A stretch of DNA of 64,000 nt, taken from NCBI GenBank assembly GCA_017634595.1, contig JAGBNC010000015.1, forward strand, positions 1 to 64,000, in the 5' to 3' direction. This document shows positions 21,795 through 57,387 of the stretch, piece after piece. The position numbers and the translations under genes were made by a program. Numbering within the stretch: position 1 is the stretch's first letter; every line of letters begins with the position of its first letter. Under the pieces are notes generated by a model that saw nothing but the letters and a program-made list of their open reading frames with translations, made no database searches and was not told where the DNA came from. This DNA is from Bacteroidales bacterium. Lineage in GTDB: Bacteria > Bacteroidota > Bacteroidia > Bacteroidales > UBA932.

Positions 21795-21837
21795 TCCCGC
21801 TTTGGGGTATAAAAGAAGAAATAAACAAAACCAAGAT

Positions 21838-23055
21838 ATGTTCAACTTAGATAAATTCATCTCCGAGAGCGTGACGTTTCGTCCCGTGAGTATGTTCGCG
21901 GCCGATATAGAGGCAAACAAAGAGCAGCTCACAAAGGAGATCAAAGGGAAGAAAGTCTGTGTCATCGGCGGTGCTGGCAGTATCGGTTCCAGCTTCATCA
22001 AGGCGGTGCTCCGCTTTGAACCGAAATCCGTTGTGGTCGTTGACCTCAACGAGAACGGACTGGCGGAACTGGTGCGCGACGTGCGCTCCACCGAAGGCCC
22101 CTACGTGCCCGACGAGTTCCGCTGCTATACGCTCAACTTTGCCGACCCCATCTTCGAGCGCATCTTCCGCGAGGAGAAAGGCTTCGACATCGTGGCCAAC
22201 TTCTCTGCCCACAAGCACGTGCGCAGCGAGAAAGACCGCTACAGCGTGCAGGCACTCATCGAGAACAACGACATCAAGGCCAAGAAGTTGATGGACCTGC
22301 TGACTGTTTATCCTCCCAAGCACTTTTTCTGCGTCTCCACAGACAAGGCCGCCAACCCCGTGAACATCATGGGCGCCAGCAAGCGCATCATGGAAGACCT
22401 GGTGATGGCCTACAACCAGCATTTCAAGGTAACCACGGCCCGCTTTGCCAATGTGGCCTTCAGCAACGGCTCGTTGCCCGACGGCTGGATCCACCGTTTA
22501 CAGAAGCGCCAGCCCCTCGCAGCACCCAGCGACGTCAAACGCTACTTCGTCAGCCCCGAAGAAAGCGGCCAGATCTGTATGCTCGCCTGCATTCTCGGCC
22601 GTCCCGGCGAAGTGTTCTTCCCCAAACTGGGCGAAGACCAGATGCTCACCTTCAGCAGCATATGCGACCGTTTCATCGATGCCAATGGCCTGCAGAAAGA
22701 CCCTTGTGCCACCGACGCCGAAGCACGCCACAAGGCCTCACAACTCACTGATAGCGAAAACGGCAAACAGAAGTACCCTACGGTGTATTTCACCTCTGAC
22801 ACCACCGGCGAGAAAGCTTACGAAGAATTCTACGTCCCCGGTGAGAAAGTCGATATGCAACGCTTCCAGGCTCTCGGCGTCGTTGAACAGACCACCCGCC
22901 ACAAGATGAGCGAGGTCAATGCCTTCTTCGATCGTCTCGAAGCCATCTTCCACCGTGATGACTTCACCAAGGCCCAGGTCGTGGAAGCTATCAAGGAGTT
23001 CATCCCGAACTTTGAGCACGAGGAGAAGGGCAAGAACTTGGATCAGAAAATGTAA
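21838..23055 (+). CDS. NDP-sugar 4,6-dehydratase (CapD/PglF-type SDR)
   Basis: The 405-residue product is an extended SDR of the UDP-GlcNAc 4,6-dehydratase type. NAD motif GGAGSIG (44-50), SAHKHVRSEKD, and CVSTDKAANPVNIMGASK with catalytic D169/K170. Met178 replaces the usual SDR Tyr, as in WbpM and PglF. It should make a 4-keto-6-deoxy sugar for amination by the next gene. The ATG at 21838 is preferred to the in-frame codon at 21802 because MFNLDKFI starts the recognisable fold. First gene of the polysaccharide locus. Confidence 0.86.
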   Translation: MFNLDKFISESVTFRPVSMFAADIEANKEQLTKEIKGKKVCVIGGAGSIGSSFIKAVLRFEPKSVVVVDLNENGLAELVRDVRSTEGPYVPDEFRCYTLNFADPIFERIFREEKGFDIVANFSAHKHVRSEKDRYSVQALIENNDIKAKKLMDLLTVYPPKHFFCVSTDKAANPVNIMGASKRIMEDLVMAYNQHFKVTTARFANVAFSNGSLPDGWIHRLQKRQPLAAPSDVKRYFVSPEESGQICMLACILGRPGEVFFPKLGEDQMLTFSSICDRFIDANGLQKDPCATDAEARHKASQLTDSENGKQKYPTVYFTSDTTGEKAYEEFYVPGEKVDMQRFQALGVVEQTTRHKMSEVNAFFDRLEAIFHRDDFTKAQVVEAIKEFIPNFEHEEKGKNLDQKM

Positions 23056-23068: not shown

Positions 23069-24208
23069 ATGGCTTACAAAATTCCTCTTTTTAATCTGAA
23101 CTTCGACGAGCGCGAGGCTCAGGCAGCGTATGATACCATCAAGTCGGGCTGGATTAGCACCGGTCCGAAGAATGCGGAGCTGGAGCAGATGTTTATTGAT
23201 ATGTGGGGCGTGAAGTATGCAGTGAGTATGGCGAACTGCACCGACTCACTTCACGTTGCGTGTATTGTGTGTGGCTTCGGTCCAGGCGATGAAGTAATCT
23301 GTCCCTCGCTGACCTTTGCAGCTTCATGTAATTGCATCCGCTATGTTGGTGCTACGCCCGTCTTTGCAGACATTATTGGCCCCGACCATATCAATATTGA
23401 TCCGGCTGACATTGAACGAAAAATTACGCCAAAAACCAAGGGAATCGTTGTGGTACACATGGCTGGTTTCCCTGCCAAAATGGACGAGATTATGGCGATT
23501 GCTCGAAAGCATGACCTCAAGGTGATTGAGGATGCTTGCCACGGCCCGTTGTCGGAGTACAAGGGCAAGAAGCTCGGAACCATCGGCGACTGCGCCTCGT
23601 TCAGTTTCTTCTCCAACAAGAATATCTCCACCGGCGAAGGCGGTATGTTCATCACCGATAACGAGGAGATGGCTGCCAAGGCCCGTCTCATCCGCAGCCA
23701 CGGTATGAGCACGATGAGCTACCAGCGTGCCAGCGGTCACGCCACCGAGTACGACATCACCTGCCTGGGTTACAACTTCCGAATGGACGACATCCGTGCG
23801 GCCATCGCTATTGAGCAGCTAAAGAAACTCCCCGGCGACCTGGAGACCCGCATCAAGGTGCGCAAGCAGTATGTGGACCGCCTGAGCAAGATTGAAGGCG
23901 TGGTGGTTCCCTTTGCCGTCAACACCGAGTTCGTGAGCAACTACATCCTGCCCACCGTCCTGCTGAACAGCACAAAGGAGCGTCGCAACAAGATCCGTGA
24001 GTACATACACGCTGCCGGCATCCAGACCAGCGTCCACTATCCCGCAGCCCACAAGTTCTCAACCTTCGCAGAACTCGGAGCCGTGCTGCCCCAGACCGAA
24101 TATGTGACCGACAACGAGATTACCCTCCCGATGTACGCAGCCCTCACCGAAGAACAGGTTAACTTCATCTGCGATACCTACGAAAAAGCCATCAAGGAGA
24201 TTAAGTAA
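23069..24208 (+). CDS. DegT/DnrJ/EryC1-family aminotransferase
   Basis: A PLP enzyme that aminates keto-sugars or related carbonyl compounds. 379 residues; GWISTGP, CTDSLHVA, VIEDACHGP and the PLP lysine K184 in FFSNKNISTGEGG are all in place. The obvious substrate is the 4-keto sugar from the upstream dehydratase (as in LegC/PseC/PglE). However, the enzymes that follow are not sugar enzymes, so it may instead aminate a product of that module. The start is 13 bases after the dehydratase stop. Confidence 0.9.
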   Translation: MAYKIPLFNLNFDEREAQAAYDTIKSGWISTGPKNAELEQMFIDMWGVKYAVSMANCTDSLHVACIVCGFGPGDEVICPSLTFAASCNCIRYVGATPVFADIIGPDHINIDPADIERKITPKTKGIVVVHMAGFPAKMDEIMAIARKHDLKVIEDACHGPLSEYKGKKLGTIGDCASFSFFSNKNISTGEGGMFITDNEEMAAKARLIRSHGMSTMSYQRASGHATEYDITCLGYNFRMDDIRAAIAIEQLKKLPGDLETRIKVRKQYVDRLSKIEGVVVPFAVNTEFVSNYILPTVLLNSTKERRNKIREYIHAAGIQTSVHYPAAHKFSTFAELGAVLPQTEYVTDNEITLPMYAALTEEQVNFICDTYEKAIKEIK

Positions 24209-25402
24209 ATGTATCAGGACAAGAAAGTTGTTCTCATCTTTGGCGTTGGTCCGCTCCAGCAGTCGATTATCAAACGTGCCAAGAAGATGGGGCTATATAC
24301 CGTGGGCATTGACCCTTGTGAGAATGCCACTTGCAGGGGCGATGTCGATGCCTTTGAAGTGGTTGGTGGCCAGGATTACGAGGACACTTGTGTCGTGGTG
24401 GAGAAGTATGGCATTGATGCCATCGTCACAGCCGCTACCGACAAGCCCCTTGTGATGATGGCCCGTATTGCAAAGAAATACGGCTTCCCGTTCTACTCTG
24501 TAGAGACCGCCCAGTGGAGTACCGACAAGTTCCAGATGAAACAGCGGTTCGAACTCGGTGATGTCCCGCACGCCAGAGGCCGTTTGGTTAAAAGTGTGGA
24601 GGAGACCGCAGATATGGTGTATCCCGTCATCGTGAAGCCTCGCGACAACTCAGGCAGCCGTGGTGTGAAACTTTGCCGCACCAAGGAGGAGCTGGAGCAG
24701 TCAATGGCTGAGGCCCTGGAGTATTCTAAGCTGGATTCTGTGCTGGTTGAGGAGTTTATCGAAGGTCCGGAATACAGCATCGAAGGACTGCACTACGATG
24801 GCAAGAGCGAGGTGATTCAGTTCACCGAGAAGAAGACCACCGAGTTCCCTTACAATGTGGAGTTAGGTCATATACAGCCGGCCCATATCAGTGAGGAGAA
24901 TAAACAGAAGATTCGTGAGATTGTAACGAAGATTGGCAAGGCATTGAAGTTCGAGAATTGTCCTTCTCATACTGAGTTGAAGATTAATGAACGGGGAATC
25001 TTTGTGATTGAGACTAGCCCGAGGCTGGGTGGAGACTATATTACCAGTACGCTCACTCCGCTTTCTACAGGCATCAATATGGAGGACCAGTTGCTGCATA
25101 TCGCTCTCGGTGAGGACGTTGATACACAAACCGGACGAGAAGAAAAAGCCTCTGGCGTATGCTTCATGAATCTTCCTTGCGGTACGGTGACTGCTATTGA
25201 TTCTGCTATTAATGAAGTTAGTTCTTGGCCAAATGTCTATAGCTTTGCTACTTCGCTGAAGGTTGGTGATGAGATACATCCGATTACGAGTAGTTTGAAT
25301 CGCTATGGGCAGTTTATTGTGAAGGGGACCGATAGAAAGGAAGTTGACAAGATGATAACTGAATACGAAAATAGAATCAATACATTTATTCGCGTAGGTT
25401 AA
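24209..25402 (+). CDS. ATP-grasp ligase 1
   Basis: A 397-residue ATP-grasp enzyme of the carbamoyl-phosphate-synthase/PurK-like type: Rossmann-like start VVLIFGVGPLQQSIIKRAKKMG, then the ATP-binding PVIVKPRDNSGSRGVKL, VLVEEFIEGPEYSIEG, and the metal site FVIETSPRLGGDYI. Such enzymes join a carboxylate to an amine or other nucleophile through an acyl phosphate. It begins directly after the aminotransferase stop, so it may ligate the amine made there. Substrates unknown. Confidence 0.85.
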   Translation: MYQDKKVVLIFGVGPLQQSIIKRAKKMGLYTVGIDPCENATCRGDVDAFEVVGGQDYEDTCVVVEKYGIDAIVTAATDKPLVMMARIAKKYGFPFYSVETAQWSTDKFQMKQRFELGDVPHARGRLVKSVEETADMVYPVIVKPRDNSGSRGVKLCRTKEELEQSMAEALEYSKLDSVLVEEFIEGPEYSIEGLHYDGKSEVIQFTEKKTTEFPYNVELGHIQPAHISEENKQKIREIVTKIGKALKFENCPSHTELKINERGIFVIETSPRLGGDYITSTLTPLSTGINMEDQLLHIALGEDVDTQTGREEKASGVCFMNLPCGTVTAIDSAINEVSSWPNVYSFATSLKVGDEIHPITSSLNRYGQFIVKGTDRKEVDKMITEYENRINTFIRVG

Positions 25403-25422
25403 AGAATTTAAAATCAATAGAT

Positions 25423-26319
25423 ATGAACTTCTACACAATGAAAGAAACCCGTGCTTTCCTGGAGAGCATTGGTATGCCGGGCGGTGACCTCTACGACCTG
25501 CCCACTTCTGAAAAGCGTTTTGAGGATGGCGGTCAGTACCGCTTCGAAGTGCCTGGCATTCAGGGACCCGCTCCGATGAAAGCCCTCTTGGAGGCATTGA
25601 ATGAGTTTGGCATTCAGATCCACCGTGTGACCCAGACCAAGGGCATTATGTTCCTCACGGACGACGAGATCAAGAAGATGGTGGAGTATGCCGAAAAATG
25701 GAAGGTGCAGCTGGTCCTGGCCTGCGGCCCCCGAGCTACCACCGACACCTCCGCATCGGTAAAGACCGAGGAAGGTCAGCGTATGGGCTACCGCCTTCGC
25801 GGTCAGGAGCAGATTGTCCGGGGTATCGAGGAAATCAAACGTGCCGCTGCCTTTGGAGTTCGTGGATTCCTGATTTATGACGAGGGTCTTCTCTGGGCAT
25901 TGAATGAAGCCCGTAAGGCCGGTTACATTCCTGCTGACTGCCACTTCAAGGTGAGTGCCCACAGCGGTCATGGCAATCCTTGCTCAGCTCACGTCCTCGA
26001 GGCATTAGGTGCGAACAGTATCAACCCTGTCCGTGATATCCAGATTCAGATGCTGGCTGCGATGCGTGCGGCCATCGATGTGCCCATCGACTTGCACACC
26101 GAGAATCCGAAGTCTTCCGGTGGCTTCATCCGTCACTACGAGGTGCCTGACTTTATCCGTGTGGCCGCCCCTGTGTATCTGAAGACCGGAGGCAGCGTAG
26201 CCGCCAACCACAGCTACGACACCACCGAGAAGGAAGCCCGCCAGAGGGCAAAGCAAGTTTGCCTTGTTAAGAGAGTGATTGATACCTATTATCCCGAAGC
26301 TATTGTTTCACCGAAGTAA
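25423..26319 (+). CDS. U32-peptidase-like TIM-barrel protein
   Basis: The 298-residue product looks like the U32 peptidase/collagenase-like family: GIQIHRVTQTKGIMFLTDDEI, VRGFLIYDEGLLW, HFKVSAHSGHGNPCSAHVLEALGANSINP, DVPIDLHTENP. U32-fold proteins include hydroxylases acting on aromatic or tRNA substrates as well as peptidases. The SAHSGHGNPCS segment could hold catalytic His and Cys. The function here is unknown; embedded in a biosynthetic module, a small-molecule role is more likely than proteolysis. Confidence 0.7.
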   Translation: MNFYTMKETRAFLESIGMPGGDLYDLPTSEKRFEDGGQYRFEVPGIQGPAPMKALLEALNEFGIQIHRVTQTKGIMFLTDDEIKKMVEYAEKWKVQLVLACGPRATTDTSASVKTEEGQRMGYRLRGQEQIVRGIEEIKRAAAFGVRGFLIYDEGLLWALNEARKAGYIPADCHFKVSAHSGHGNPCSAHVLEALGANSINPVRDIQIQMLAAMRAAIDVPIDLHTENPKSSGGFIRHYEVPDFIRVAAPVYLKTGGSVAANHSYDTTEKEARQRAKQVCLVKRVIDTYYPEAIVSPK

Positions 26320-27465
26320 ATGAGACACCATAATTACAACCCGGACTTTGCTTTTGTCAAAGCTCCCGTAGAGTTTAACAAGTACACCGATCGCGATACG
26401 CTTCAGTATTGCTTGGGTGCTACACTGTATATGCCTGGCACGAAGGACATCCGTGCCAAAGTAGTTAACCGCGAACTGCCCGTCACATCGTTCGTGATGT
26501 GCTGCGAGGATGCCATCAAGGAGGAAGACCTGCCCGTTGCAGAGCAGAACATCCTCGACACGATGGACTACTTCGCCGACCAGATTGAGGCCGGGAAGAT
26601 CACCATCAACGATATCCCGCTCATCTTCGTGCGTGTCCGAAACCCGGAACAGTTCAAGAGCTTTGCCGCAAGGATTACCAAGAAGCAGGCTTCTGTGCTC
26701 ACCGGTTTCAACTTTCCGAAGTTCAACAGTACAAACGCCTTGAATGTGCTGCGCACCTTGGTTGAGGTGAACAGCCGGCTGGGGGTGGTGCTGTACGGAA
26801 TGCCCATCCTGGAAGGTCCGGAGGTGGCTTTCCGCGAGCTTCGCACAAAGGAGTTACTGCTTCTGCGGAACATTCTGGAACCCTATAAGGATCTGATTCT
26901 GAACATCCGAGTAGGCGGTACGGATATGTCATCGCTCTTCGGCGTGCGTCGTGGCATCAACTCCACGGTGTACGACATTATGCCCGTGCGGGATGCCCTG
27001 TCGGACGTGGTGAACTTCTTCAACCGCTATTGCGACTACTGTGTGTCGGCTGCCGTATGGGAGTACTTCCGTGCATATAACGATGACGACATAGACGAAC
27101 TGATCAAGCGCAACTTCCACAATGCCCTCATCAAGGGACAGGACATCGTGAATCCAGCCATTGACGGTCTGCTGAAGGAAGTGATGATAGACCGAGCCAA
27201 CGGTTTTGTGGGCAAGACCATCATCCATCCTACACACGCCAAGTTCGTGAACGGCATGTTCACCGTGGTGGAGGAAGAGTATAAGGATGCCATCCAGATT
27301 CTGAACACCTCCGGCGGTGTGATCAAGAGCGAGGAAGGGGGCAAGATGAACGAGATTGGTCCTCACCACCGCTGGGCAGAGAAGATTGTGAAGCGAGCCG
27401 AGGTGTATGGTGTGGTGAAAACCGAGGATTCCGTACTGGGCCTTATCCTTGGACACAAAGAATAA
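26320..27465 (+). CDS. HpcH/HpaI-citrate lyase-like C-C bond lyase
   Basis: The 381-residue product resembles the citrate lyase beta/HpcH TIM-barrel superfamily, most like the C-C_Bond_Lyase subgroup: FVRVRNPEQF, GFNFPKFNS, LYGMPILEGPEVAF, NIRVGGTDMSSLFGVRRG, and GFVGKTIIHPTHAKFVNGMF near the end (compare GKqaIHP in citrate lyase). These enzymes cleave or form C-C bonds next to a carboxylate, often yielding pyruvate, oxaloacetate or glyoxylate. It abuts the U32-like gene with no gap. Confidence 0.78.
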   Translation: MRHHNYNPDFAFVKAPVEFNKYTDRDTLQYCLGATLYMPGTKDIRAKVVNRELPVTSFVMCCEDAIKEEDLPVAEQNILDTMDYFADQIEAGKITINDIPLIFVRVRNPEQFKSFAARITKKQASVLTGFNFPKFNSTNALNVLRTLVEVNSRLGVVLYGMPILEGPEVAFRELRTKELLLLRNILEPYKDLILNIRVGGTDMSSLFGVRRGINSTVYDIMPVRDALSDVVNFFNRYCDYCVSAAVWEYFRAYNDDDIDELIKRNFHNALIKGQDIVNPAIDGLLKEVMIDRANGFVGKTIIHPTHAKFVNGMFTVVEEEYKDAIQILNTSGGVIKSEEGGKMNEIGPHHRWAEKIVKRAEVYGVVKTEDSVLGLILGHKE

Positions 27466-27471
27466 AATGGT

Positions 27472-28410
27472 ATGATGAAAATAGTTCTTGGCACAATGAA
27501 TTTCGGTCCCCAGCTTAACCTGGAGGCCAGCCGCACGATGACCGAGTCGTTCCTGAAGACCGGCAATAACGAACTGGACACAGCCTACGTCTATAACGGA
27601 GGGGATACGGAGAAGTACCTGGGTGAGATTCTGCCCAATCTGGATGGATACTATCTGGCCACCAAAGTGCATCCCCGCATCACGGGCAAGCTGGATAGGG
27701 AGTGCATCCTGATGGAGTTTAACGAATCGCTCAAGCGGATGAACCGCGACAAGGTGGATTTGCTGTATTTCCATTTCCCGGACGGCAAGACTCCGATAGG
27801 GGAAGCACTAGAGACCGTTGCGGAACTCTATGAGCAAGGCAAGGTGAAAGAACTGGGACTGAGCAACTATCCCGCTTGGCAGGTGGTGGACATCTGGCAC
27901 AAGTGTGAGAAGTACGGCTGCCCGAAGCCGACGGTGTATCAGGGTATGTACAATGCCCTGTGCCGCAATGTGGAGCCTGAGCTGTTTCCGGCGATCCGAG
28001 CCTTGGGGATGCGCTTCTATGCCTTCAATCCGTTGGCGGGCGGTATGCTCACGGGCAAGCATCATCACTTTGAGGATGCTCCCGAACCAGGACGCTTTGC
28101 CCGCTTGAAGAGCTATCGTGACCGCTATTGGAAGCAGAGCTACTTCGATGCCGTGGATGAGATCCGCAAGGCCTGTGAGGCGGAAGGCATTCCGATGGTA
28201 GAGGCAGCATACCGCTGGCTCTGCAACCATTCGATGCTGGATGCAACGAATGGCGATGGCATTCTGCTGGGAGCCTCCAAGATTACGCAGATGGAACAGA
28301 ATATGGAAGCAGCCAAGAAAGGCGAGCTGCCGCAGTCGATTCTCGAAGCGATGGATGATGCCTGGGAGATAGCAAAGCCTGACAGTCCTGCTTACTTCAA
28401 GTTTATCTAA
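27472..28410 (+). CDS. aldo/keto reductase
   Basis: A 312-residue NADPH-dependent reductase of the AKR7-like type. Tetrad residues appear in ELDTAYVYNGGDTEKYLG (Asp36, Tyr near 41), LATKVHP (Lys65) and LLYFHFPDG. The substrate-binding barrel continues through VKELGLSNYPAW and FYAFNPLAGGMLTG. It probably reduces an aldehyde made by the TPP-dependent decarboxylase two genes downstream. ATGATG gives two possible starts (27472 or 27475). Confidence 0.9.
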   Translation: MMKIVLGTMNFGPQLNLEASRTMTESFLKTGNNELDTAYVYNGGDTEKYLGEILPNLDGYYLATKVHPRITGKLDRECILMEFNESLKRMNRDKVDLLYFHFPDGKTPIGEALETVAELYEQGKVKELGLSNYPAWQVVDIWHKCEKYGCPKPTVYQGMYNALCRNVEPELFPAIRALGMRFYAFNPLAGGMLTGKHHHFEDAPEPGRFARLKSYRDRYWKQSYFDAVDEIRKACEAEGIPMVEAAYRWLCNHSMLDATNGDGILLGASKITQMEQNMEAAKKGELPQSILEAMDDAWEIAKPDSPAYFKFI

Positions 28411-28415
28411 GACTT

Positions 28416-29759
28416 ATGAATATATCACGAGCATATTTTGACGCGATTGACAAAGTGGCCAAGCAGCCCATCCCTGCCAAAGTGATGGAACGGGCAAGGC
28501 AGTCGCTGCTGGATTATCTGGCCGTGACCTGTGCCGGTGCCCACTTCCAAAGTGGCAAGATGGAGCGGTATTTTTCTTTTGCGGAGCCTGAGGCAGGAGC
28601 CTTCAAAGCCATCGGGACAGGAAAGAGCCTTGCCCTGAAAGAGGCGGTGTTCCTGAACGGGCTGAATGCACATGCTTTGGATTATGACGACGGCACCAAC
28701 TCGGGCATTATCCATTTGGGTTCGCCTATTTTCTCCTTGCTGATTCCGCTGTCGCAGAGGTATAGCAAGAGTGTGGAGCAGATACTACAGGCGGCTGTGA
28801 TTGGCTATGAAGCGTCGTACACGATGGCCGTATCCATCCAGCCCAAACACAAGGCGTTGGGATTTCACGCGACAGGCACCTGCGGAATGTTGGGGGCAAC
28901 ATTGGCGGCTGCCTATATGCTTGGCCTTACGGATGAAGAACGGTTTCAGGCATTTGCAGCGGCCTGCGTGTCAGCTTCGGGAATGTTGAAAGTGCTGGAC
29001 GACGGGTCGGAACTGAAGCCCTACAATGTGGCGAAGACCGCACTGCTCTCGCTCACTAGCCTGCAACTGGCCAAGGCCGGATTCAATGGACACGAGGACC
29101 CGCTTGGCGGGTATCGCGGATTCCTGAAGATGATGGCAGGTGACGAGAATGTGGCCATCAAGCCCACCTTGCTGAATGGCACATACGCTATTATGAAGAG
29201 CTACACCAAGCCGTATGCCTCCTGCCGCTATACCCACCCGCCGGTGGAGGCTGCTATCCATTTGCGTAATCAGTATAGTATCACGCCGGAGCAGGTGCTT
29301 GGTATTAAGGTTGAGACCTACGATTTGGCTGTGTCCGGCCACGACCATCAGGAGGTGAAGGGGGCGTATTCTGCCAAGATGAGCACGCCTTACAGTACTG
29401 CGGTGGCTCTGGCTTACGGGAAAGCCGGCTTGCAGGAGTTTGAAGACGATGTGCTGGAGAGTGAATCCATTAAGGAACTGTCCAAGAAAGTGCAGGTCGT
29501 ATCCGACGAGGAATTGAGCAGGATATTCCCGGAAAAGCAGAGTGCCATCCTGACGGTCACCACTTCATCCGGGTCTTATTCGGAGCGGGTGGACTTTCCA
29601 AAGGGCGAGCCGGAGAATCCGTTTACGGAAGCAGAGTTCCTAGAGCGATATGAATCATTGATGTCCTACGGGGGCGTGAAGGAAGAGGTGTTCAAATGTA
29701 TTTATGAATTGACCGGGAATGCGGACACGAAGGTCGCAGACTTGGTGAGCAAATTATAA
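28416..29759 (+). CDS. MmgE/PrpD-family dehydratase/decarboxylase
   Basis: The 447-residue product shows the MmgE/PrpD pattern: QSLLDYLAVTCAGA, NGLNAHALDYDDGTNSGIIHLGSP, GYEASYTMAVSIQPKHKALGFHATGTCGMLGA, and YASCRYTHPPVEAA. Family members dehydrate 2-methylcitrate or decarboxylate cis-aconitate, so a tri- or dicarboxylic substrate is expected. Together with the fumarase-type genes downstream it suggests dehydration and hydration of a hydroxy acid. Confidence 0.88.
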   Translation: MNISRAYFDAIDKVAKQPIPAKVMERARQSLLDYLAVTCAGAHFQSGKMERYFSFAEPEAGAFKAIGTGKSLALKEAVFLNGLNAHALDYDDGTNSGIIHLGSPIFSLLIPLSQRYSKSVEQILQAAVIGYEASYTMAVSIQPKHKALGFHATGTCGMLGATLAAAYMLGLTDEERFQAFAAACVSASGMLKVLDDGSELKPYNVAKTALLSLTSLQLAKAGFNGHEDPLGGYRGFLKMMAGDENVAIKPTLLNGTYAIMKSYTKPYASCRYTHPPVEAAIHLRNQYSITPEQVLGIKVETYDLAVSGHDHQEVKGAYSAKMSTPYSTAVALAYGKAGLQEFEDDVLESESIKELSKKVQVVSDEELSRIFPEKQSAILTVTTSSGSYSERVDFPKGEPENPFTEAEFLERYESLMSYGGVKEEVFKCIYELTGNADTKVADLVSKL

Positions 29760-29763
29760 CGAA

Positions 29764-30897
29764 ATGGTAGATCAAAAGCAATTATTTGATGCTTTGGGCA
29801 AGATGGGCGTTGACTTCTTTACAGGCGTTCCCGACTCGCTGCTCAACGACTTTTGCCTCTATATGGTGAAAAATATCCCCGACGGACAGCACGTGATGGC
29901 TGCCAACGAGGGGAATGCCATCGGCATTGCCGCAGGCCATTATATGGCGACGGGTCATATCCCGGTAGTGTATATGCAGAACTCCGGCATCGGCAACGCC
30001 ACCAATCCGCTGTTGTCGCTGACGCACGACTGTGTGTATGGTATTCCGATGGTGCTGGTTATCGGCTGGCGTGGGGATCCTGCCATCAGCGACCACGCCC
30101 AGCATAAGAAGCAAGGTGAGCTGACCCCGGTGCTGATGAAGGATATGGACATCCCGTATGAGATCTTGGATGCGGAAGATACCGTGGTGGAGAAGTTCGC
30201 CTGGGCAGTGAACAAGGCCAAAGAGATTTCTTCGCCGGTGGCACTGATTGCCAAGAAGGCCATCCTGACGGAGAAGATCAAGAAGCAGGTATATCCCGAG
30301 AGTCCGCTGATGAACCGCGAGGAAGCGGTTTCAGCTGTGGTTGAGGTGCTGGGCAGCGATGCCGTGTATCTTGGTACCACGGGTCGGGCTACCCGTGAGG
30401 TTCACGAGCAGTTGAAGGCTCACGGCGTAGGTGAAGGTCACGAGTTTCAGAATGTGGGTTCTATGGGGCACGTCTCGTCTGTGGGACTCGGCATTGCGCT
30501 GGCAAAGCCGGAGCAGAAGGTCGTTGTCTTTGACGGTGATGCCGCTGCGGTGATGCATCTGGGCGCCTTGGCTACTAACTGTCGCTACAAAGCCGGAAAT
30601 ATGGTGCATATCGTGCTGAACAACGGGGTGAATGAATCCGTTGGCGGTCAGCCGTCTGCCGGATATGTGGTGAACCTCACTGCCATTGCTGAAGCTTGCG
30701 GCTATCGCACGCCCGGGCATCCGGTAGAAAACAAAGAGGAGTTGCAGCAGATTGTGCGCGAGCAGGGAAGTGGCGAGATGCCTCTTTTCATTGACGTCCA
30801 CGTGCGTCAGGGCATCCGCAGCGATATGCCTAAGTTGAACATTGACCATAAAGCACAGAAAGTGGCTTTGATGGAAAACTTAATGGGTAAGAAATGA
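29764..30897 (+). CDS. phosphonopyruvate decarboxylase-like TPP enzyme
   Basis: The 377-residue product matches phosphonopyruvate/sulfopyruvate decarboxylases: FFTGVPDSLLNDFC, the TPP-activating Glu in VMAANEGNAIGIAAGHY, NSGIGNATNPLLSL, and the TPP/Mg motif GDAAAVMH..NNGVNESVGGQPSAGY. It removes CO2 from a 2-oxo acid to give an aldehyde. No phosphoenolpyruvate mutase lies in the window, so phosphonopyruvate may not be the substrate. It overlaps the next gene by ATGA. Confidence 0.86.
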   Translation: MVDQKQLFDALGKMGVDFFTGVPDSLLNDFCLYMVKNIPDGQHVMAANEGNAIGIAAGHYMATGHIPVVYMQNSGIGNATNPLLSLTHDCVYGIPMVLVIGWRGDPAISDHAQHKKQGELTPVLMKDMDIPYEILDAEDTVVEKFAWAVNKAKEISSPVALIAKKAILTEKIKKQVYPESPLMNREEAVSAVVEVLGSDAVYLGTTGRATREVHEQLKAHGVGEGHEFQNVGSMGHVSSVGLGIALAKPEQKVVVFDGDAAAVMHLGALATNCRYKAGNMVHIVLNNGVNESVGGQPSAGYVVNLTAIAEACGYRTPGHPVENKEELQQIVREQGSGEMPLFIDVHVRQGIRSDMPKLNIDHKAQKVALMENLMGKK

Positions 30898-31400
30898 TAG
30901 AACTGACAACACCTTTCAGTGAGGAAGCCATCAGAGAGCTGAATGTGGGCGATGTAGTAAGCATCAGCGGGTATATCTATACCGGCCGTGACGCTGTGCT
31001 TCCGAAGATCATCAAGGCTGGAGAAGACGGTCGGTTGGCCGAGATGGGCATCGACCTGCAAGGGGCGGTGATATTCCATACGGCAGTCAGCCCTGCCGGG
31101 GTTGGCCCCACTTCCAGCAATAAAGTGGAGATAGAGAGCTCTTTCGAGCCGCTGTCCAAACTGGGCGTGAAGATGCACCTGGGCAAGGGAGCAATCTCTA
31201 AAGAGACAGTGAAGAAACTGGCAGAGAACAATGCCGTGTTTGCGGTGATTCCGCCTGTGACGGCCTTGCTGGAAAGCCAGACCGTGGAACGTGAAGTCGT
31301 GGCCTATCCCGAACTGGGGATGGAGGCGATGAACCGGCTGAAAGTGGTGAAATATCAGGCCATTATTGGCGCAGCGAAAGGGAGGAGCATTTATGATTAG
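30894..31400 (+). CDS. class I fumarase/tartrate dehydratase-type hydro-lyase, beta subunit
   Basis: The 168-residue product is the C-terminal (Fumerase_C) half of class I fumarases: VSISGYIYTGRDAVLPKI, GAVIFHTAVSPAGVGPTSS, HLGKGAISKE. It forms a heterodimer with the alpha subunit encoded immediately downstream. It should hydrate a dicarboxylic alkene, or dehydrate a hydroxy acid, at an Fe-S site. It overlaps the decarboxylase gene and the alpha gene, so the three are coupled. Confidence 0.9.
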   Translation: MIELTTPFSEEAIRELNVGDVVSISGYIYTGRDAVLPKIIKAGEDGRLAEMGIDLQGAVIFHTAVSPAGVGPTSSNKVEIESSFEPLSKLGVKMHLGKGAISKETVKKLAENNAVFAVIPPVTALLESQTVEREVVAYPELGMEAMNRLKVVKYQAIIGAAKGRSIYD

Positions 31401-32238
31401 CATACAAGAAAAAGTGGCGGACTGCCTGGTAAGGGCTGGCTCCACATTCCGCGAGGATCAGAAAGAGGCTTATCGCAAAGCGATTGCCAGTGAAGAGATA
31501 GAAAGCTCCTGCTGGGTGATGCGTCAGGTGCTGGACAATGCACTGGTGGCTGAAGAGAGGCGTAGTCCGCTGTGTGATGACACAGGTATTCCGCACCTGT
31601 TCCTTGAAGTTGGACCGAGCCACAATGTGAGCGGTGAACTGCTGCAACAGATTCAGGAAGGTGTAGCGATGGGCTTGCGCCAGCTGCCGGGCCGTCCGAT
31701 GGCCATCAAGGGTGATGACTATGCCCGCATTGACCAGAGCGAGGGATTGGATGAGGACAGCGGAGCTTTGGCTCCTTCTCCGATATTGATTAAGCCGGTG
31801 GATGAAGAGGTACTTAGACTGACCATTATGATGCTTGGCGGTGGCCCAGCCATTCGGGGTATCACCCAACGGGTGTTCCACAAGCATAGTGTGGAGGTGA
31901 TGATTGACGAGATTGTGAATCGCGCCATTCCTGCCGTTTCGCAGCTGGGATGCTCGCCTTGTACTTTGGCTATCGGCATCGGGCGTTCGCAGTTCGAGGC
32001 CACGAGCCTGATGATGGAAGCGATGGCAAAGGGCAACTATGGCGTGCAGAGTGATTTCGAGAAGCGGATTACCGACAAAGTGAACGAGAGTAAGACTGGT
32101 CCCCTTGGGCTTGGTGGCAAGCACAGCGTGCTGGCAACCTTTGCGAAGATTGGCCCTCAGCGTGCAAGTGGTGTACGTATCGTGGCCTTGCGGCCTTGCT
32201 GTTGCTTTGAGCCTAGAAGGGCGAGTGTGGAATTGTGA
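31393..32238 (+). CDS. class I fumarase/tartrate dehydratase-type hydro-lyase, alpha subunit
   Basis: Carries the [4Fe-4S] cluster of the hydro-lyase. Cys ligands are expected in SPLCDDTGIPHLF and SQLGCSPCTLAIGIGRSQ; a late GGKHSVLATFAKIGPQRASG matches the alpha-subunit end. The product is 281 residues from the ATG at 31393, which overlaps the beta gene by eight bases. The C terminus has an unusual RPCCCFEPRR. The beta-before-alpha order is noteworthy. Last gene of the 21.8-32.2 kb run. Confidence 0.9.
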   Translation: MISIQEKVADCLVRAGSTFREDQKEAYRKAIASEEIESSCWVMRQVLDNALVAEERRSPLCDDTGIPHLFLEVGPSHNVSGELLQQIQEGVAMGLRQLPGRPMAIKGDDYARIDQSEGLDEDSGALAPSPILIKPVDEEVLRLTIMMLGGGPAIRGITQRVFHKHSVEVMIDEIVNRAIPAVSQLGCSPCTLAIGIGRSQFEATSLMMEAMAKGNYGVQSDFEKRITDKVNESKTGPLGLGGKHSVLATFAKIGPQRASGVRIVALRPCCCFEPRRASVEL

Positions 32239-32665: not shown

Positions 32666-33988
32666 ATGAAGAGTCTTAAAGGAAAGAAATTGTTAGTTCT
32701 TGGAGGGTCAGCCTCGAATGTGCAATTGGTTCATTTTGCACAGCAGATGGGAGCATTCGTGGTGGTGGCTGACAATCGGGAAAACAGACCAGGTAAGGAT
32801 GCTGCAGACGACTCTGTCTTGATAAGTACAGACGATTATGAAGGACTATGTCAGTATATTAAAGCGCATCATATTGATGGTGTCGCAACTGGTGCTGGAG
32901 AATGGAATGTCGTGAACGCGATGAAACTGTGTAAAATTGCAGGATTACCGTATTACGCTGACGAACATCTGTGGAATATCTGCCAAGATAAACGCAACTT
33001 CAAAGACTGCTGCAAAAAATACGGAGTACCGACAGTACCGGAGTTTTCTATTGACAAAAAACCGCAGGATAAGGACTACCCGGTTATTGTTAAACCAGTT
33101 GATGGTTGCTCTTCACGGGGGATTTCTATCTGCCATAATGAAGAAGAACTCAACAAAGCAATTGATTTTGCATTGTCCCTTTCTCAGTCGACGAATGTGA
33201 TAATTGAAAAGTATGTTGATAATGGTGGTGTCACGATTGATGCAAAATATGTGGTCGTCGACGGGCAATGTTATCTTGAAGCACTTGGTGAAAGATATGT
33301 TCTTGAAGGAGGGTTAATTACTGCTATTAGTTTCTACCCTTCGACTCTAATTAGCCGTTTTATGGACAAAGTGAATCCTAATGTTCAGAAGATGTTCTCT
33401 TTCTTAGGATATAAAAACGGAGTATTCTTTTTCCAGGCCATTCCAGACGGAGAGGAAATATACGTATATGAAATGGGACTTCGCGTAAGTGGAGGTATGA
33501 TTTACAATATGACCGAAGCTTCCGGTTGTAATAATGTAATGAAGATGCTAATCTATCATTCTTTGACCGGGAAAATGTGTGAGAAGGATGATATAAAAAC
33601 TATTGACCCGTATTTTGGTGGCAAACAAGCCAGCACGGTGGCTCTTCCTTTGCGATTAGGGACAATTGCCCATATAGAGGGTCTTGAAAAGGTTAAACGG
33701 CTTCCTGGAGTAGTTGATGTTACCGTGTATTACGGAGAAGGGCATGAATGCATCCCAAAACACATCAATACTCTCGATCAGCTTTTTGCACGAGTCATTG
33801 TTGTTTCAGATAATGAGAAATCGCTATTTGATACCCTTAAAAAGATAAGAGAGTCTGTTATTGTAAATGACAATGATGGAAACTCTCTGATTAATTGGAC
33901 GACATTCGACAAACTCTATACATACTGCATCGCCGGAGGAGGGAAGAATCGTTTAGAGCAGTGTCTCAGTCAATATAAAGATAGTTGA
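32666..33988 (+). CDS. ATP-grasp ligase 2
   Basis: The 440-residue product has a PurK/CarB-like arrangement: LLVLGGSASNVQLVHFAQQMG, the ATP-grasp segments YPVIVKPVDGCSSRGISI and NVIIEKYVDNGGVTIDAKY, and a late YVYEMGLRVSGGMIYN metal region. It differs enough from the enzyme at 24209 to have its own substrate. It is AT-rich, unlike the module upstream, and begins a new block together with the lipoprotein that follows. Confidence 0.82.
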   Translation: MKSLKGKKLLVLGGSASNVQLVHFAQQMGAFVVVADNRENRPGKDAADDSVLISTDDYEGLCQYIKAHHIDGVATGAGEWNVVNAMKLCKIAGLPYYADEHLWNICQDKRNFKDCCKKYGVPTVPEFSIDKKPQDKDYPVIVKPVDGCSSRGISICHNEEELNKAIDFALSLSQSTNVIIEKYVDNGGVTIDAKYVVVDGQCYLEALGERYVLEGGLITAISFYPSTLISRFMDKVNPNVQKMFSFLGYKNGVFFFQAIPDGEEIYVYEMGLRVSGGMIYNMTEASGCNNVMKMLIYHSLTGKMCEKDDIKTIDPYFGGKQASTVALPLRLGTIAHIEGLEKVKRLPGVVDVTVYYGEGHECIPKHINTLDQLFARVIVVSDNEKSLFDTLKKIRESVIVNDNDGNSLINWTTFDKLYTYCIAGGGKNRLEQCLSQYKDS

Positions 33989-33999: not shown

Positions 34000-35334
34000 T
34001 TGCACGTGAAATATAGTTTCAAGGTCAATCATTTGTTTGTAACGCTATTGTACGTAACAGCGTTATTCTCATCGTGTACATCTATAGAATTGGACGTTTA
34101 TAATGATGGAGGTAACGACTCATATCGACGCTCATCTGGTGAGCAAAGTGGCACTAACGATTTTCTATGGGCGAAATCAGAAGGTGTCAGGAATGTCTTG
34201 CGGAGAGCTTCACAACTTGCCAACATCACTTGGACACCGATTCTTGATATCCCGGGAAATGCGGGCGTTTATCCTGCGGGGATCGAAGTCTTAGGAATAC
34301 CGTACTCTTCCACTAAGCAGATTAATAAATATGTTGGGTTAGATGTCACCTTTCATACTTTTATGACGGCTCTGCATAATCCCAGAAGTGTTCTATATAC
34401 AGAAAACCTTAGAGAGGCTCCATACTTCGGCTCTAATTGTGCAAGTTATTACGGTACGGTTTGCAGTAGTGCTGTTGCCTATGCATTGGATTTGGATGCT
34501 CCATTCTCGTCATCTTCTTTCCCGTCTCTGTCATGCTTTTACAGAGTGCCAGGCCACAATCTGGAATCGTTGGAACCTGGAGATGTTTTGCAAAGGCCGG
34601 GTCATGTGTTCATGGTATATAAAGTTGATAAGAATAACCGAGGTGCAGTGATAAGTGTATCAATCTTTGAGGCTGCCAGTCGTTATGCTCGTATATCAAC
34701 TACTTCAGCGAATTCTTTCCAGGAACGGCTCGAAAGAGAGGATTATGTTGCTTATCGTTACGATGCGATTGATGACGTGGATCAATATGAGTCTTCACCT
34801 TATGTGGCAGTAGGTTCTGAGTCGGTATCGGTGGTAAAGTATAATGATTCTTTATGTCCCAATAGAGGAGACAGAAGTGTATATCGTGTAGGGGAGCCTG
34901 TGGTGATAAATATCTTGGAAGACTCGTATAAGAGTCTGATTGTTAAAGGATCTGAAGGATATTATAATACGTTCGAAAGTGAAGGTGATATAAAGCTAGA
35001 CAATCTCCCTCCCAGTGTATACGAAGCGTATCTTGCAGATGGCGTAAGGGTGTCGGAGCCTGTTTCGTTCTTGGTTGCGGCACCACAAGTAACTGTTAGG
35101 AATGATGCCCAACTTCATGTGTCTTTTTCATGCAGGCAAGGAAAGCCTTCGTACTGCGTATTATGTGACAGAGTGGGCAGTTTTAAGTCCATTCATGTGA
35201 TTACAGCAGAAGAAGCTGATCAAGGTTATATTGATATAGAACCACTGGATGTGAGTTCATACTTTTGTAAGGTAGTATTTGACACTACATATGGTACTGT
35301 TGTTAACGAACCAATTAAAGTTACTCATCTCTAG
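34000..35334 (+). CDS. lipoprotein with an NlpC/P60-like region
   Basis: Begins at TTG (34000) or more plausibly GTG (34006); a stop codon immediately upstream excludes an ATG. A signal peptide ends in a lipobox LFSSC. The ~140-220 region has a possible catalytic Cys in SNCASYYGTVCSSAVAYAL and a His in LEPGDVLQRPGHVFMVYKV, the order of NlpC/P60 or CHAP peptidases. The C-terminal half looks like beta-sandwich repeats. It could hydrolyse peptide or amide bonds at the envelope. It follows the ATP-grasp gene by 11 bases, and both are AT-rich. Confidence 0.7.
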   Translation: MHVKYSFKVNHLFVTLLYVTALFSSCTSIELDVYNDGGNDSYRRSSGEQSGTNDFLWAKSEGVRNVLRRASQLANITWTPILDIPGNAGVYPAGIEVLGIPYSSTKQINKYVGLDVTFHTFMTALHNPRSVLYTENLREAPYFGSNCASYYGTVCSSAVAYALDLDAPFSSSSFPSLSCFYRVPGHNLESLEPGDVLQRPGHVFMVYKVDKNNRGAVISVSIFEAASRYARISTTSANSFQERLEREDYVAYRYDAIDDVDQYESSPYVAVGSESVSVVKYNDSLCPNRGDRSVYRVGEPVVINILEDSYKSLIVKGSEGYYNTFESEGDIKLDNLPPSVYEAYLADGVRVSEPVSFLVAAPQVTVRNDAQLHVSFSCRQGKPSYCVLCDRVGSFKSIHVITAEEADQGYIDIEPLDVSSYFCKVVFDTTYGTVVNEPIKVTHL

Positions 35335-42054: not shown

Positions 42055-43395
42055 ATGACAAAAGTAATAACCTACGGAACCTACGACCTGCTACACCAAG
42101 GGCACCTCAACCTCCTCCGGCGGGCAAAGGAACTGGGCGACTACCTGATAGTAGGGGTCACCAGCGATAGCTTCGACCGTGGCCGGGGCAAGCTCAATGT
42201 GCGAAACAATGTGTTGGAACGCGTTGAGGCAGTGAAGGCGACTGGGTTTGCAGACGAGGTAATCATCGAGGACTACCTCGGACAGAAAATCGACGACATC
42301 CAAAAATACGATGTGGATATCTTTGCTATCGGAAGCGATTGGGAAGGGAAGTTCGACTATCTGAACGAATACTGCAAGGTAGTCTATCTGCCCAGGACAG
42401 AAGGCATATCCTCCACAATGCTGCGGGCGGAAAGTCAGGATGTGTTCCGCATCGGTGTCATAGGCAGCGGACGTATCGCCCATCGTTTTGTGCCTGAAAC
42501 CAAGATGGTGAACGGAGCTGAGGTGGTGGCTGTGTTGAATCCAGAAAAGGAGAAAGCGGACGCGTTTGCGAAGATGCACGGGTTAGAAGCCTTTACAGAG
42601 TTTGAAGAGTTCATCCAGAAGGTGGATGCAGTCTATATTGCTTCACCACATTTGTCTCACTATGATTATGCCAAGCGGTCATTACAGGCTGGGAAACACG
42701 TGCTTTGCGAGATCCCTTTTGTGATGTCCAAGGAGCAGGCGTTGGAACTTTATCGTTTAGCTGAGGAGAAGAACCTCGTGCTGATGGAAGCCAGCAAGAC
42801 GGCCTACTGTCCTGCCTTTGGCCATATCGTGACGTTGGTGAAGAGCGGAATCATAGGTGATGTCGTAGATGTGAAGGCTTCGCTCAGTAAGATGGTGCCG
42901 CCACCTACGCGCGAGCTGGATGCTGCTCAGGCTGGAGGAGCAATGACAGAACACGCACCACTGACACTGATGGCCATCATCAAGCTGCTTGGTATTGACT
43001 GGAAGGATGTGAACTTCCATAGCCGGATGGAAAACGGTGTGGATATATATACCAAAGGAGTGCTGAACTATCCACACGCAACTTCATCATTCACGTTAGG
43101 CATTGGCGTGAAGACAGAAGGCAATTTGGTCATCTCAGGAACCAAGGGTTACATCTATGTCCCTGCCCCTTGGTGGCTAACCAGTTTCTTTGAGGTGCGT
43201 TATGAGGATCAGACCAAGAACAAGAAATACTTCTATAGCTACGATGGCGAAGGCTTGCGCTATGAGATTCAGGAATGGCTGTCGATGATAGTGAACGACA
43301 GACGCAGCTGCTATAAACTGCGCAGGCGTGAGAGTGTGGCAATCGCTGAGATAATAGAGAAATACCGTAACAAAGAAAACGTGACAGAAATATGA
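42055..43395 (+). CDS. fusion: TagD-like cytidylyltransferase + Gfo/Idh/MocA oxidoreductase
   Basis: Residues 1-~130 are a glycerol-3-phosphate cytidylyltransferase-like domain: TYGTYDLLHQGHLNLLRRAK (HxGH site) and LPRTEGISSTMLR (ISST motif). From ~133 a Rossmann oxidoreductase follows (IGVIGSGRIAHRF, VYIASPHLSHYDYAKRSLQAGKHVLCEIPF). The two should act in sequence to form a CDP-polyol (CDP-glycerol, CDP-ribitol or similar). The next gene is an SDR and the one after a TagF-like transferase, which supports a polyol-phosphate product. Confidence 0.9.
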   Translation: MTKVITYGTYDLLHQGHLNLLRRAKELGDYLIVGVTSDSFDRGRGKLNVRNNVLERVEAVKATGFADEVIIEDYLGQKIDDIQKYDVDIFAIGSDWEGKFDYLNEYCKVVYLPRTEGISSTMLRAESQDVFRIGVIGSGRIAHRFVPETKMVNGAEVVAVLNPEKEKADAFAKMHGLEAFTEFEEFIQKVDAVYIASPHLSHYDYAKRSLQAGKHVLCEIPFVMSKEQALELYRLAEEKNLVLMEASKTAYCPAFGHIVTLVKSGIIGDVVDVKASLSKMVPPPTRELDAAQAGGAMTEHAPLTLMAIIKLLGIDWKDVNFHSRMENGVDIYTKGVLNYPHATSSFTLGIGVKTEGNLVISGTKGYIYVPAPWWLTSFFEVRYEDQTKNKKYFYSYDGEGLRYEIQEWLSMIVNDRRSCYKLRRRESVAIAEIIEKYRNKENVTEI

Positions 43396-44138
43396 TCCAC
43401 AGAATCCTTGTAGTAGGAGGTGCTAACGGAATTGGTTTATCCATCGCCCACGAATTAGCAAATCGAGAAAGTACAGAGAAGGTGTATGTGGTGGACAAAG
43501 CACCATTAATGGAAGAGTATGCCCACCCAAAGATCCAGTCCTTCCAGTTTGACTTGACAAGCGAAGACTACTCCTTTTTCGACCGCTTTGATGATATTGA
43601 TGCGTTGATGATTACGGCAGGCTTTGGAAAGCTTGCACTATTTAAGGATGTGCCGGAGAACTACATTATGAATTCGTTTAACGTCAACACTATTCCGGTG
43701 TTGAGGTTGGTGCATAAGTTTTACGGAAAGTTGGAAGCGAAAGAGAACTTCTACTGTGGGGTGATGGTGAGTATTGCAGGGTTTATGTCTTCACCGTTCT
43801 TTGCCGTGTATGGAGCAACCAAGGCTGCGCTGAAGATTTTTATCGAAAGTGTGAACGTGGAGTTAAAGAAAGGAGGTTCTTATAATTGCATATTGAATGT
43901 GAGTCCTGGATCTATGAAAGGAACGTCATTTGCGAACACGAAAACCGACTTGTCTATTATATCCCCTTTGGCAAAAGAGATTCTCATTCATTTAGAGTCA
44001 CAAGATGACTTGTTTATTCCTCAATATGAAGATGTGTTTCGAGACGTATTGAAACGCTATTCGAGTGATTTCAGAAAGGAAGGAGAGCATTCGTATGACT
44101 ATAAGATTCACAGTGGAAGAGTCTCTAATCCTAAATAA
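43392..44138 (+). CDS. short-chain dehydrogenase/reductase
   Basis: The 248-residue product is a classical SDR: VVGGANGIGLSIAHEL (cofactor), MITAGFGKLA, and catalytic Ser/YxxxK in SIAGFMSSPFFAVYGATKAALK. It overlaps the fusion gene by ATGA and precedes the TagF-like gene, so it probably reduces or epimerises the sugar phosphate turned into a CDP-polyol. Confidence 0.88.
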   Translation: MIHRILVVGGANGIGLSIAHELANRESTEKVYVVDKAPLMEEYAHPKIQSFQFDLTSEDYSFFDRFDDIDALMITAGFGKLALFKDVPENYIMNSFNVNTIPVLRLVHKFYGKLEAKENFYCGVMVSIAGFMSSPFFAVYGATKAALKIFIESVNVELKKGGSYNCILNVSPGSMKGTSFANTKTDLSIISPLAKEILIHLESQDDLFIPQYEDVFRDVLKRYSSDFRKEGEHSYDYKIHSGRVSNPK

Positions 44139-44147
44139 ATAAAGGCA

Positions 44148-57316: not shown

Positions 57317-57387
57317 TAAAAGGTGAATGAACCGTTAAGAAAGGAGAAAGTTTGTGTAGGGATACAATAAAGTTGGAGAAGTTTCGT

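Follow-up and report, generated by a model that had tools for sequence, protein, structure and literature searches.

We describe a set of co-localized enzyme genes in a 64,000-nucleotide stretch of a Bacteroidales genome (GenBank assembly GCA_017634595.1, contig JAGBNC010000015.1, positions 1 to 64,000; hereafter the window) and put forward, as a tentative reading, that they encode one dedicated two-arm pathway making an acyl group of the capsule. The conserved genes encode a U32-like barrel enzyme, a CitE-like carbon-carbon bond lyase, an aldo/keto reductase (AKR), an MmgE/PrpD-family enzyme (PrpD), a thiamine pyrophosphate (TPP)-dependent 2-oxo-acid decarboxylase (Ppd) and the two parts of a class I fumarase-type hydro-lyase (FumB and FumA, together FumAB). 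The enzymes of this module belong to known families; what is new here is that AKR and Ppd are nearly mutually exclusive with a 2-hydroxyacid dehydrogenase across related loci, and that the genes are inherited arm by arm. Our reading is based on these two observations together with gene content, recurrence of the gene set, retained active-site residues and capsule context.

A seven-gene core recurs across phyla

Open reading frame (ORF) prediction and a family scan of the window recovered all nine genes of the original prediction on the + strand at 23069-32238, in the order it had given, and confirmed that they follow one another with little or no gap (0, 20, 0, 6, 5, 4, -4 and -8 bases between consecutive genes); FumA is then separated from the next gene by 427 bases. 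Window proteins were assigned with Pfam and NCBIfam profile scans, Pfam covering 30 of them, and the U32-like protein (298 amino acids) is the only one of the nine without a match to either at E 1e-3. The nine genes do not make up a fixed module, as had been proposed: the conserved unit is the seven genes for the U32-like enzyme, lyase, AKR, PrpD, Ppd, FumB and FumA, because the DegT aminotransferase and the ATP-grasp ligase are variable partners.

Within the window's own order, the U32-like gene was found in 2 of 393 genomes searched, and a strong PF15617 lyase (354 bits) is likewise confined to these two, no other match in the order exceeding 71.6 bits. The second carrier (G101), from another family of the order, has all seven core genes at 73-92% identity between different flanks, its ATP-grasp and aminotransferase being only 27% and 29% identical to those of the window. 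A strong PF15617 lyase was also found in 14 of 299 genomes from a Bacillota-type phylum, and of these 14 just one (G497) has the module-type U32-like gene; the lyase family therefore has other uses, including in tellurium-resistance (Ter)-type operons.

A wide scan of one genome per species (84,980 species), in which the query was an alignment of six U32-like proteins, confirmed at least 573 relatives. The loci of the best 79 of these at least 573, plus L009 and L129, form the 81 loci of our co-occurrence counts; since they were picked by closeness to the window's U32-like protein, the counts describe that subfamily, and some loci stop at contig ends, where gene absences are uncertain. Besides the U32-like gene (81), these loci hold the lyase (74), FumB (71), PrpD (68), FumA (68), AKR (47) and Ppd (47), with ATP-grasp (51), DegT (45), 2HADH (26), BacTr (24), ATPgST (15) and Ldh_2 (9) as partners and, more rarely, DctM (9), HMGL (3), CitF (3) and CitE (2). 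Record titles place the rows of the U32-like tree (82) in Bacillota (52), Bacteroidota (22) and four other phyla (one each), with four rows unassigned.

The gene set is beyond chance, because the seven core genes recur in G101 and most genes recur in most of the 81 loci. That they are chance neighbors or decayed genes has next to no probability given this recurrence across phyla and the kept active-site residues described below, and nothing was found in favor of it. The recurrence also supports the earlier view that these families belong together and read as a small-molecule pathway, and the neighborhood co-occurrence check runs counter to the outcome that would have told against it, namely that the families are found separately everywhere else. 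The description "uncommon" holds within the order and fails beyond it, as the module occurs across several phyla. A scan of viral contigs returned 14 stretches that fit a pattern, none of which encoded a U32-like relative, and a literature search found no description of this gene set, the subscription literature lying mostly outside the searched body.

Two terminal types nearly exclude one another

The loci carry one of two kinds of terminal enzyme. Type A, to which the window belongs, is AKR plus Ppd, found together in 46 of the 81 loci and each without the other in one; type B is a hydroxyacid dehydrogenase (2HADH or Ldh_2), found in 30 loci, of which only L023 also has Ppd. Set against each other, Ppd alone occurs in 46 loci, the dehydrogenase alone in 29, both in one and neither in five (Fisher p 9e-16), and restricting the count to loci of 15 kb or longer (65) gives 36, 24, one and four, respectively (p 1e-12). 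These p values assume independent loci, which the loci are not, and the repeated switching of terminal type on the protein trees described below is the better argument. The families of both types use 2-oxo acids as substrates, which probably puts the two at one and the same pathway step. For type B, the Ldh_2 proteins of L070 and L044 were tested, and both have sulfolactate dehydrogenase as their best model, below cut-off; we take the substrates of both the phosphonopyruvate decarboxylase and the sulfolactate dehydrogenase families to carry an acid group at C3.

Locus L013, set against the window, shows the other type beside a similar set of sugar genes. Its dehydratase, DegT, ATP-grasp and U32-like proteins are 82%, 79%, 73% and 91% identical to those of the window, and it carries Ldh_2, with no Ppd found on its 14 kb. 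Such a matching sugar block combined with the other terminal type suggests that the window and L013 may share their amino sugar and differ in its acyl group.

The family of the decarboxylase raises the alternative of a phosphonate or sulfonate route, in which the 2-oxo acid would be phosphonopyruvate or sulfopyruvate and the products hydroxyethyl-phosphonate or -sulfonate, or phosphonolactate or sulfolactate. Although Ppd passes the cut-off of the phosphonopyruvate decarboxylase model (TIGR03297) and all three Ldh_2 proteins tested score best, below cut-off, with sulfolactate dehydrogenase, we consider this route very improbable, on searches that addressed PEP mutase and not C-S-forming genes. 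The window's own genome has no PEP (phosphoenolpyruvate) mutase over cut-off (PF13714 best 19.3 bits against a cut-off of 31.5; TIGR02320 no match), and TIGR02320 exceeds its cut-off in only 2 of 23 module genomes, G395, where the gene lies on a different contig from the module, and G1249. Such a route would also leave FumAB, PrpD and the citrate-lyase replacements described below unexplained, and its decarboxylated product would have no carboxylate for the ATP-grasp ligase. Phosphonate synthesis, which we considered because Ppd passes its model, was thus put low after the PEP mutase searches, and a match to the described aminoethylphosphonate route, which the original prediction had named as a possible refutation, is disfavored. 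As a separate observation, G1249, which holds locus L035, has two PEP mutase genes over cut-off, and L035 has a second Ppd-like ORF (42%).

The two arms are inherited separately

We counted changes of terminal type on quick trees of five core proteins, leaving out the 6 of 81 loci that have both types or neither, and compared the counts with 500 shuffles. The lyase tree has 2 changes (69 rows; shuffled mean 19.7) and the PrpD tree likewise 2 (62 rows; shuffled mean 17), with none of the 500 shuffles as low for either protein. By comparison, the trees of FumA, FumB and the U32-like protein have 15 (63 rows; mean 16.5; about 100 of 500 shuffles as low), 16 (67 rows; mean 18.4; 56 of 500) and 20 changes (76 rows; mean 23.4; 33 of 500). 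When only the 52 rows with all five core genes are used, the window included, the counts are 2 for the lyase, 2 for PrpD, 11 for FumA, 11 for FumB and 9 for the U32-like protein, against means of about 11. The same pattern can be seen in single proteins of the window and of L011, a dehydrogenase-type locus, whose U32-like proteins and FumA are 96% and 88% identical, yet whose lyases and PrpD proteins are only 53% and 36% identical. Terminal type thus tracks the lyase and PrpD trees and not clearly those of FumA, FumB or the U32-like protein, and, judged from the sequences, the module therefore consists of a shared arm (the U32-like enzyme and FumAB) and a swappable arm (the lyase, PrpD and the terminal enzymes).

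Arm-wise inheritance would also fit two independent mini-pathways in one operon, with the U32-like enzyme and FumAB making one product, the lyase, PrpD and terminal enzymes another, and each having its own ligase; two ATP-grasp genes do flank the module in the window. To this extent the tree result counts against a single pathway. We nevertheless hold this arrangement to be improbable, as the arms co-occur nearly always, with the lyase in 74 of 81 U32-like loci, and are together even in L079, where no other pathway genes were seen.

Core enzymes keep active-site residues and point to organic acids

Predicted active-site residues of PrpD, Ppd, AKR and FumA are strongly retained. In PrpD, each of H86, H100, H151, K201 and K265 is kept in 63 or more of the 64 rows. 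Position 89, which aligns with a catalytic Asp/Glu, is occupied by Asp or Glu: the 20 type B rows all have Glu, and the 42 type A rows have Asp (30), Glu (11) or a gap (1). According to PMC12290011, the catalytic residues of IDS epimerase are H85, D88, H99, H150, K198 and K266, and known MmgE/PrpD enzymes include 2-methylcitrate dehydratase, cis-aconitate decarboxylase, IDS epimerase and methylsuccinate isomerase. The Ppd residues for TPP (E49, D257, D259, N286 and N287) and the AKR residues D36, Y41, K65 and H101 are each present in 47 of 47 rows. FumA has cysteines at 61, 187/190 and 270/271 in 67 of 67 rows, and we take these three positions to be the ligands of the 4Fe-4S cluster of class I fumarase.

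To judge by its model scores, the module FumA is far from a true fumarase: the window protein reaches 102.6 bits with the fumarase equivalog NF004885, below its cut-off of 276, and just passes the broader TIGR00722 (105.8 against 100.65 bits), unlike the FumA of L139, which has a malic enzyme gene and a related U32-like gene in its vicinity and scores 420.3 bits with the fumarase model. According to PMC4682846, mesaconate is a further substrate hydrated by class I fumarases, and clostridial glutamate clusters have FumAB-type genes adjoining CitDEF. FumAB and PrpD would act on diacids, since the known MmgE/PrpD enzymes and class I fumarases of these two sources act on such acids.

The lyase is missing from 7 of 81 loci (L043, L044, L057, L066, L076, L081 and L082), and other genes stand in for it in several of these, namely CitE/CitF/CitX in the near-copies L044 and L082, CitF in L057 (3 kb only), and an HMGL-like protein in the near-copies L066 and L076 and in L081. 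On these few cases, the replacements point to citrate/citramalate-type carbon-carbon chemistry for the lyase. A sequence search of the PDB turned up nothing that could serve as a template for the U32-like protein, and the best lyase match had an E value of 0.11.

The kinship of the U32-like protein with classic U32 proteins is at most distant. Relatives in L005, L146 and L139 reach the PF01136 (U32) cut-off of 22.4 bits with 23.0, 26.2 and 22.5 bits, that of L087 scores 13.0 bits, and the window protein has no match at 1e-3. Among the 82 rows, C187 is near-constant (79) and C173 is present in 70; the classic U32 cysteine set, presumably one with an Fe-S role, is absent, and was seen by eye in the U32-type proteins of L127 and L128. 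Because these cysteines are absent, a role as Fe-S hydroxylase was put low. We also considered a generic pyruvate aldolase (from sugar-acid contexts), a cis-trans isomerase and a C-X lyase, among which the evidence does not choose. Relatives occur in gene groups of the order Ldh_2 - U32-like - FumAB - malic enzyme (L130, L132-L134, L139) and with or near PanB-like genes (L145-L148, L185 and L187 by eye; L144 confirmed by Pfam), contexts that look like acid metabolism.

Further features of these relatives were noted in passing. The five gene groups with malic enzyme (L130, L132, L133, L134, L139) look like an acid-degradation route, with transporter genes by eye in L130, L132 and L133, AFOR-type genes by eye in L130, L134 and L139 (confirmed in L139), and creatininase-like matches in L132-L134 and L139. 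In Actinomycetota-type genomes (L170, L174, L178, L181), a U32-like gene lies beside a mandelate-racemase-type sugar-acid dehydratase gene recognized by eye, dehydrogenases and sugar ABC genes; this neighbor was present in 4 of the 10 regions read (of 20 fetched, those in which the U32-like gene was picked up), was below cut-off when checked in L170 by NCBIfam, and may mark a sugar-acid catabolic step. Finally, a distant U32-like gene (33%) sits in an apparently unrelated biosynthetic cluster on an Enterobacter chuandaensis plasmid (L008:12228-26135), with an enolase paralogue, an APH-type kinase, a 2-hydroxyacid dehydrogenase, an aminotransferase, two heme-oxygenase-like iron enzymes, DUF2817, MFS and NTP_transf_5.

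A proposed two-arm pathway

These findings can be assembled into a step-by-step model, in which we infer the direction, the junction at an oxaloacetate-like acid, the ligation and every substrate. In the shared arm, the U32-like enzyme and FumAB would handle a (substituted) fumarate- or malate-type diacid. In the swappable arm, the CitE-like lyase would make or break a citramalate/citrate-type carbon-carbon bond, and PrpD would carry out proton or water chemistry on an acid with a succinate core. The arms would meet at a 2-oxo acid with an acid group at C3, either oxaloacetate or a C-substituted oxaloacetate, as suggested by the family of Ppd and the Ldh_2 type of dehydrogenase. In type A modules such as that of the window, Ppd would decarboxylate this 2-oxo acid to an aldehyde, which AKR would reduce to a 3-hydroxypropionate-like acid; in type B, the 2-hydroxyacid dehydrogenase would reduce the 2-oxo acid to a malate-like acid. 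The dehydratase and DegT pair would make a 4-amino-4,6-dideoxy sugar, with the dehydratase-like protein at 21802..23055 as the probable module partner supplying the 4-keto sugar. As the hydroxy-acid product would keep its carboxylate, the adjacent ATP-grasp ligase, a candidate for the amide-forming step, could join it to the amino group of the sugar, leaving a non-sugar acyl group on the capsule.

Capsule and catabolic settings

The window module sits in a capsule locus, as its downstream region holds a weak MatE (flippase-type) match and glycosyltransferase, EpsG and sugar-transferase genes. By lenient BLAST criteria, one or more of the markers ATP-grasp, ATPgST, DegT and BacTr are present on the fetched stretch in 60 of 82 rows, and in nine loci (L012, L020, L026, L027, L034, L036, L038, L040 and L047) only ATP-grasp genes lie between the U32-like and lyase genes. 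The module is thus usually found beside capsule-type genes, as the original prediction had it for the window, without being confined to capsule loci (L079, L044/L082).

Several observations weigh against a dedicated capsule pathway. The trees have low support and many open or weak forks, so the exact change counts are soft, with the contrast between proteins still large, and the U32-like tree retains a weak trend with terminal type. The commoner type B enzyme, 2HADH (26 of 81 loci), offers no hint of a C3 acid group: for the sole 2HADH tested, the top-ranking model was phosphoglycerate dehydrogenase, at a score under its cut-off. Loci with another gene in place of the lyase are few, and some are near-copies of one another (L044/L082; L066/L076); in L043, where the lyase is also missing, nothing was seen to take its place. 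Relatives of the U32-like protein in several other acid-metabolic contexts leave its reaction unfixed. No capsule marker is found on the fetched stretch in 22 of 82 rows, some of which owe this to a short stretch or to genes that the markers miss (L073 has polysaccharide-type genes by eye). A DctM-type permease occurs on 9 of 81 loci (one confirmed by PF06808), with a LysR-type gene (cluster c27) on five of these (L035, L045, L055, L061 and L086; one confirmed), so part of the family may be catabolic. L079 has a module operon with DctM-type permease and LysR-like genes and no capsule gene recognized by eye on 21 kb. Lastly, the near-identical Clostridia loci L044 and L082, which carry CitE, CitF, CitX, 2HADH, two U32-like genes, PrpD, FumBA and Ldh_2 along with oligopeptide-type ABC and creatininase genes by eye, are apparently catabolic.

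These settings make a catabolic use of the same chemistry a serious rival, if an unlikely one. PrpD and the U32-like enzyme would isomerize an imported organic acid, FumAB would add water to it, and the lyase would split it into acetate and pyruvate; Ppd and AKR (to ethanol) or a lactate-type dehydrogenase would then act as an electron sink, and the capsule neighborhood would be secondary. Besides the permease and CitE/CitF/CitX loci, the gene groups that join the U32-like subfamily to Ldh_2, FumAB and malic enzyme speak for it, as does the pairing of a FumAB-type mesaconase with CitDEF in clostridial citramalate routes (PMC4682846). Against it stand the 60 of 82 rows with capsule-type or ATP-grasp genes, the ATP-grasp genes inside several modules, and the finding that 7 of the 9 DctM loci also show ATP-grasp, DegT or BacTr matches (L035, L055, L061 and L086) or polysaccharide-type genes by eye (L028, L045 and L068). 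Moreover, a simple outlet for pyruvate would not call for a gene set of its own at a capsule locus, and the lyase and PrpD follow the terminal enzymes on the trees.

A single pathway to a capsule acyl group remains the reading that we tentatively favor, and the original prediction, taken as a whole, is partly supported. Still more guardedly, we suggest that the module may represent an undescribed branching pathway around a new U32-type barrel family, one that lacks the classic cysteines and acts on organic acids, and that gut and rumen bacteria of several phyla may use it combinatorially, a shared supply arm being joined to exchangeable lyase/PrpD/terminal cassettes that alter the capsule acyl group. 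In gut commensals, the capsule is important for recognition by the immune system and for resistance to phages, and many of the non-sugar groups that it carries have yet to be mapped. A widespread cassette in which terminal enzymes are swapped in coherent sets would allow substituents to be predicted from genes and would place the U32-like family in a catalytic setting; it also singles out specific enzymes to reconstitute in vitro.

Features of the window locus

The coordinates of the module and its neighbors are given in Table 1. The DegT ORF starts at 22919, with the homologous part beginning at about 23069, and its best NCBIfam match is PseC (292.8 bits, under the cut-off of 423.5). The second ATP-grasp protein has homologues of 56% and 59% identity in L014 and L015, likewise after FumA.

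Table 1. Genes of the module and its immediate neighbors in the window
Feature	Coordinates	Strand	Profile match or remark
Nucleotide-sugar 4,6-dehydratase-like (Polysacc_synt_2)	21802..23055	+	PF02719 128.6 bits, scanned from 21850
DegT/DnrJ/EryC1 aminotransferase, variable partner	23069..24208	+	PF01041 362.5 bits
ATP-grasp ligase with L-amino-acid-ligase C-terminal domain	24209..25402	+	PF13535 95 bits, PF18603 LAL_C2 35 bits
U32-like barrel enzyme, shared arm	25423..26319	+	Query of scan; without classic U32 cysteine set
CitE-like C-C bond lyase, swappable arm	26320..27465	+	PF15617 354.1 bits
AKR, type A terminal enzyme	27472..28410	+	PF00248 191 bits
MmgE/PrpD-family enzyme, swappable arm	28416..29759	+	PF03972 151.7 bits, PF19305 125.7 bits
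Ppd, TPP-dependent 2-oxo-acid decarboxylase, phosphonopyruvate decarboxylase family, type A terminal enzyme	29764..30897	+	TIGR03297 387.8 bits, cut-off 312.5
FumB, class I fumarase-type hydro-lyase beta part, shared arm	30894..31400	+	PF05683 72.9 bits
FumA, class I fumarase-type hydro-lyase alpha part, shared arm	31393..32238	+	PF05681 160.5 bits
Second ATP-grasp protein, possible second ligase	32666..33988	+	PF13535 32.8 bits

Three other regions of the window are worth recording. At 34000-35334 lies a gene for a protein without a Pfam match, lipoprotein-like by eye, with homologues on six other module loci, where those of L022, L027 and L036 adjoin the U32-like gene. The region 42055-45320 encodes a glycerol-3-phosphate cytidylyltransferase-like domain fused to a Gfo/Idh/MocA oxidoreductase, then an SDR and a TarF-like glycerophosphotransferase; all NCBIfam equivalogs were under cut-off, and this may be a branch of this capsule that uses a CDP-polyol. 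A defense-like cluster lies at the right-hand end of the capsule locus (56060-63195) and comprises a SIR2-like protein (weak Aga_SIR2), TcmP/PDC-M41A, PDC-M41B (also PDC-M30B), an Orf5/HEC-06-like protein, weak AAA-ATPase-type matches and a PrimPol-like protein matching the DRT model RTasVirE-PriCT2.

Relation to known systems

The clostridial methylaspartate/citramalate branch (mesaconase MesAB and citramalate lyase CitDEF) resembles the module in coupling a FumAB-type hydro-lyase to a CitE-type lyase; L044 and L082 have CitE/CitF/CitX together with FumBA. It differs in that glutamate mutase and methylaspartate ammonia-lyase were not recognized by eye in L044, where no family search was made, and in that the module adds the U32-like enzyme, PrpD and a swappable 2-oxo-acid step in a mostly capsular context. 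The itaconate/methylsuccinate degradation cluster of PMC12290011 likewise places an MmgE/PrpD enzyme beside a CitE-family lyase and works on C5 branched diacids. By contrast, no CoA transferase or acyl-CoA dehydrogenase was found among the window proteins scanned, and the module has a PF15617 lyase rather than a citramalyl-CoA lyase, with FumAB and the U32-like enzyme added.

The aminoethylphosphonate pathway (PepM, Ppd and an aminotransferase) shares with the window a Ppd-family decarboxylase and an aminotransferase at a capsule locus; unlike that pathway, the window genome has no PEP mutase over cut-off and pairs Ppd with AKR, the lyase, PrpD and FumAB. Ter operons contain PF15617 lyases, 36-39% identical to the window lyase, beside TerC/TerD-like genes (recognized by eye in L200, L201, L207 and L208), whereas no Ter family was found among the 30 window proteins scanned with Pfam and the module partners differ. 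Dedicated acyl-precursor pathways in polysaccharide loci are a known kind of system: the tetronate acylation genes of Vibrio cholerae O1, whose enzyme families differ from those of the module, form a pathway of their own by which an amino sugar receives a non-sugar acyl group derived from a hydroxy acid.

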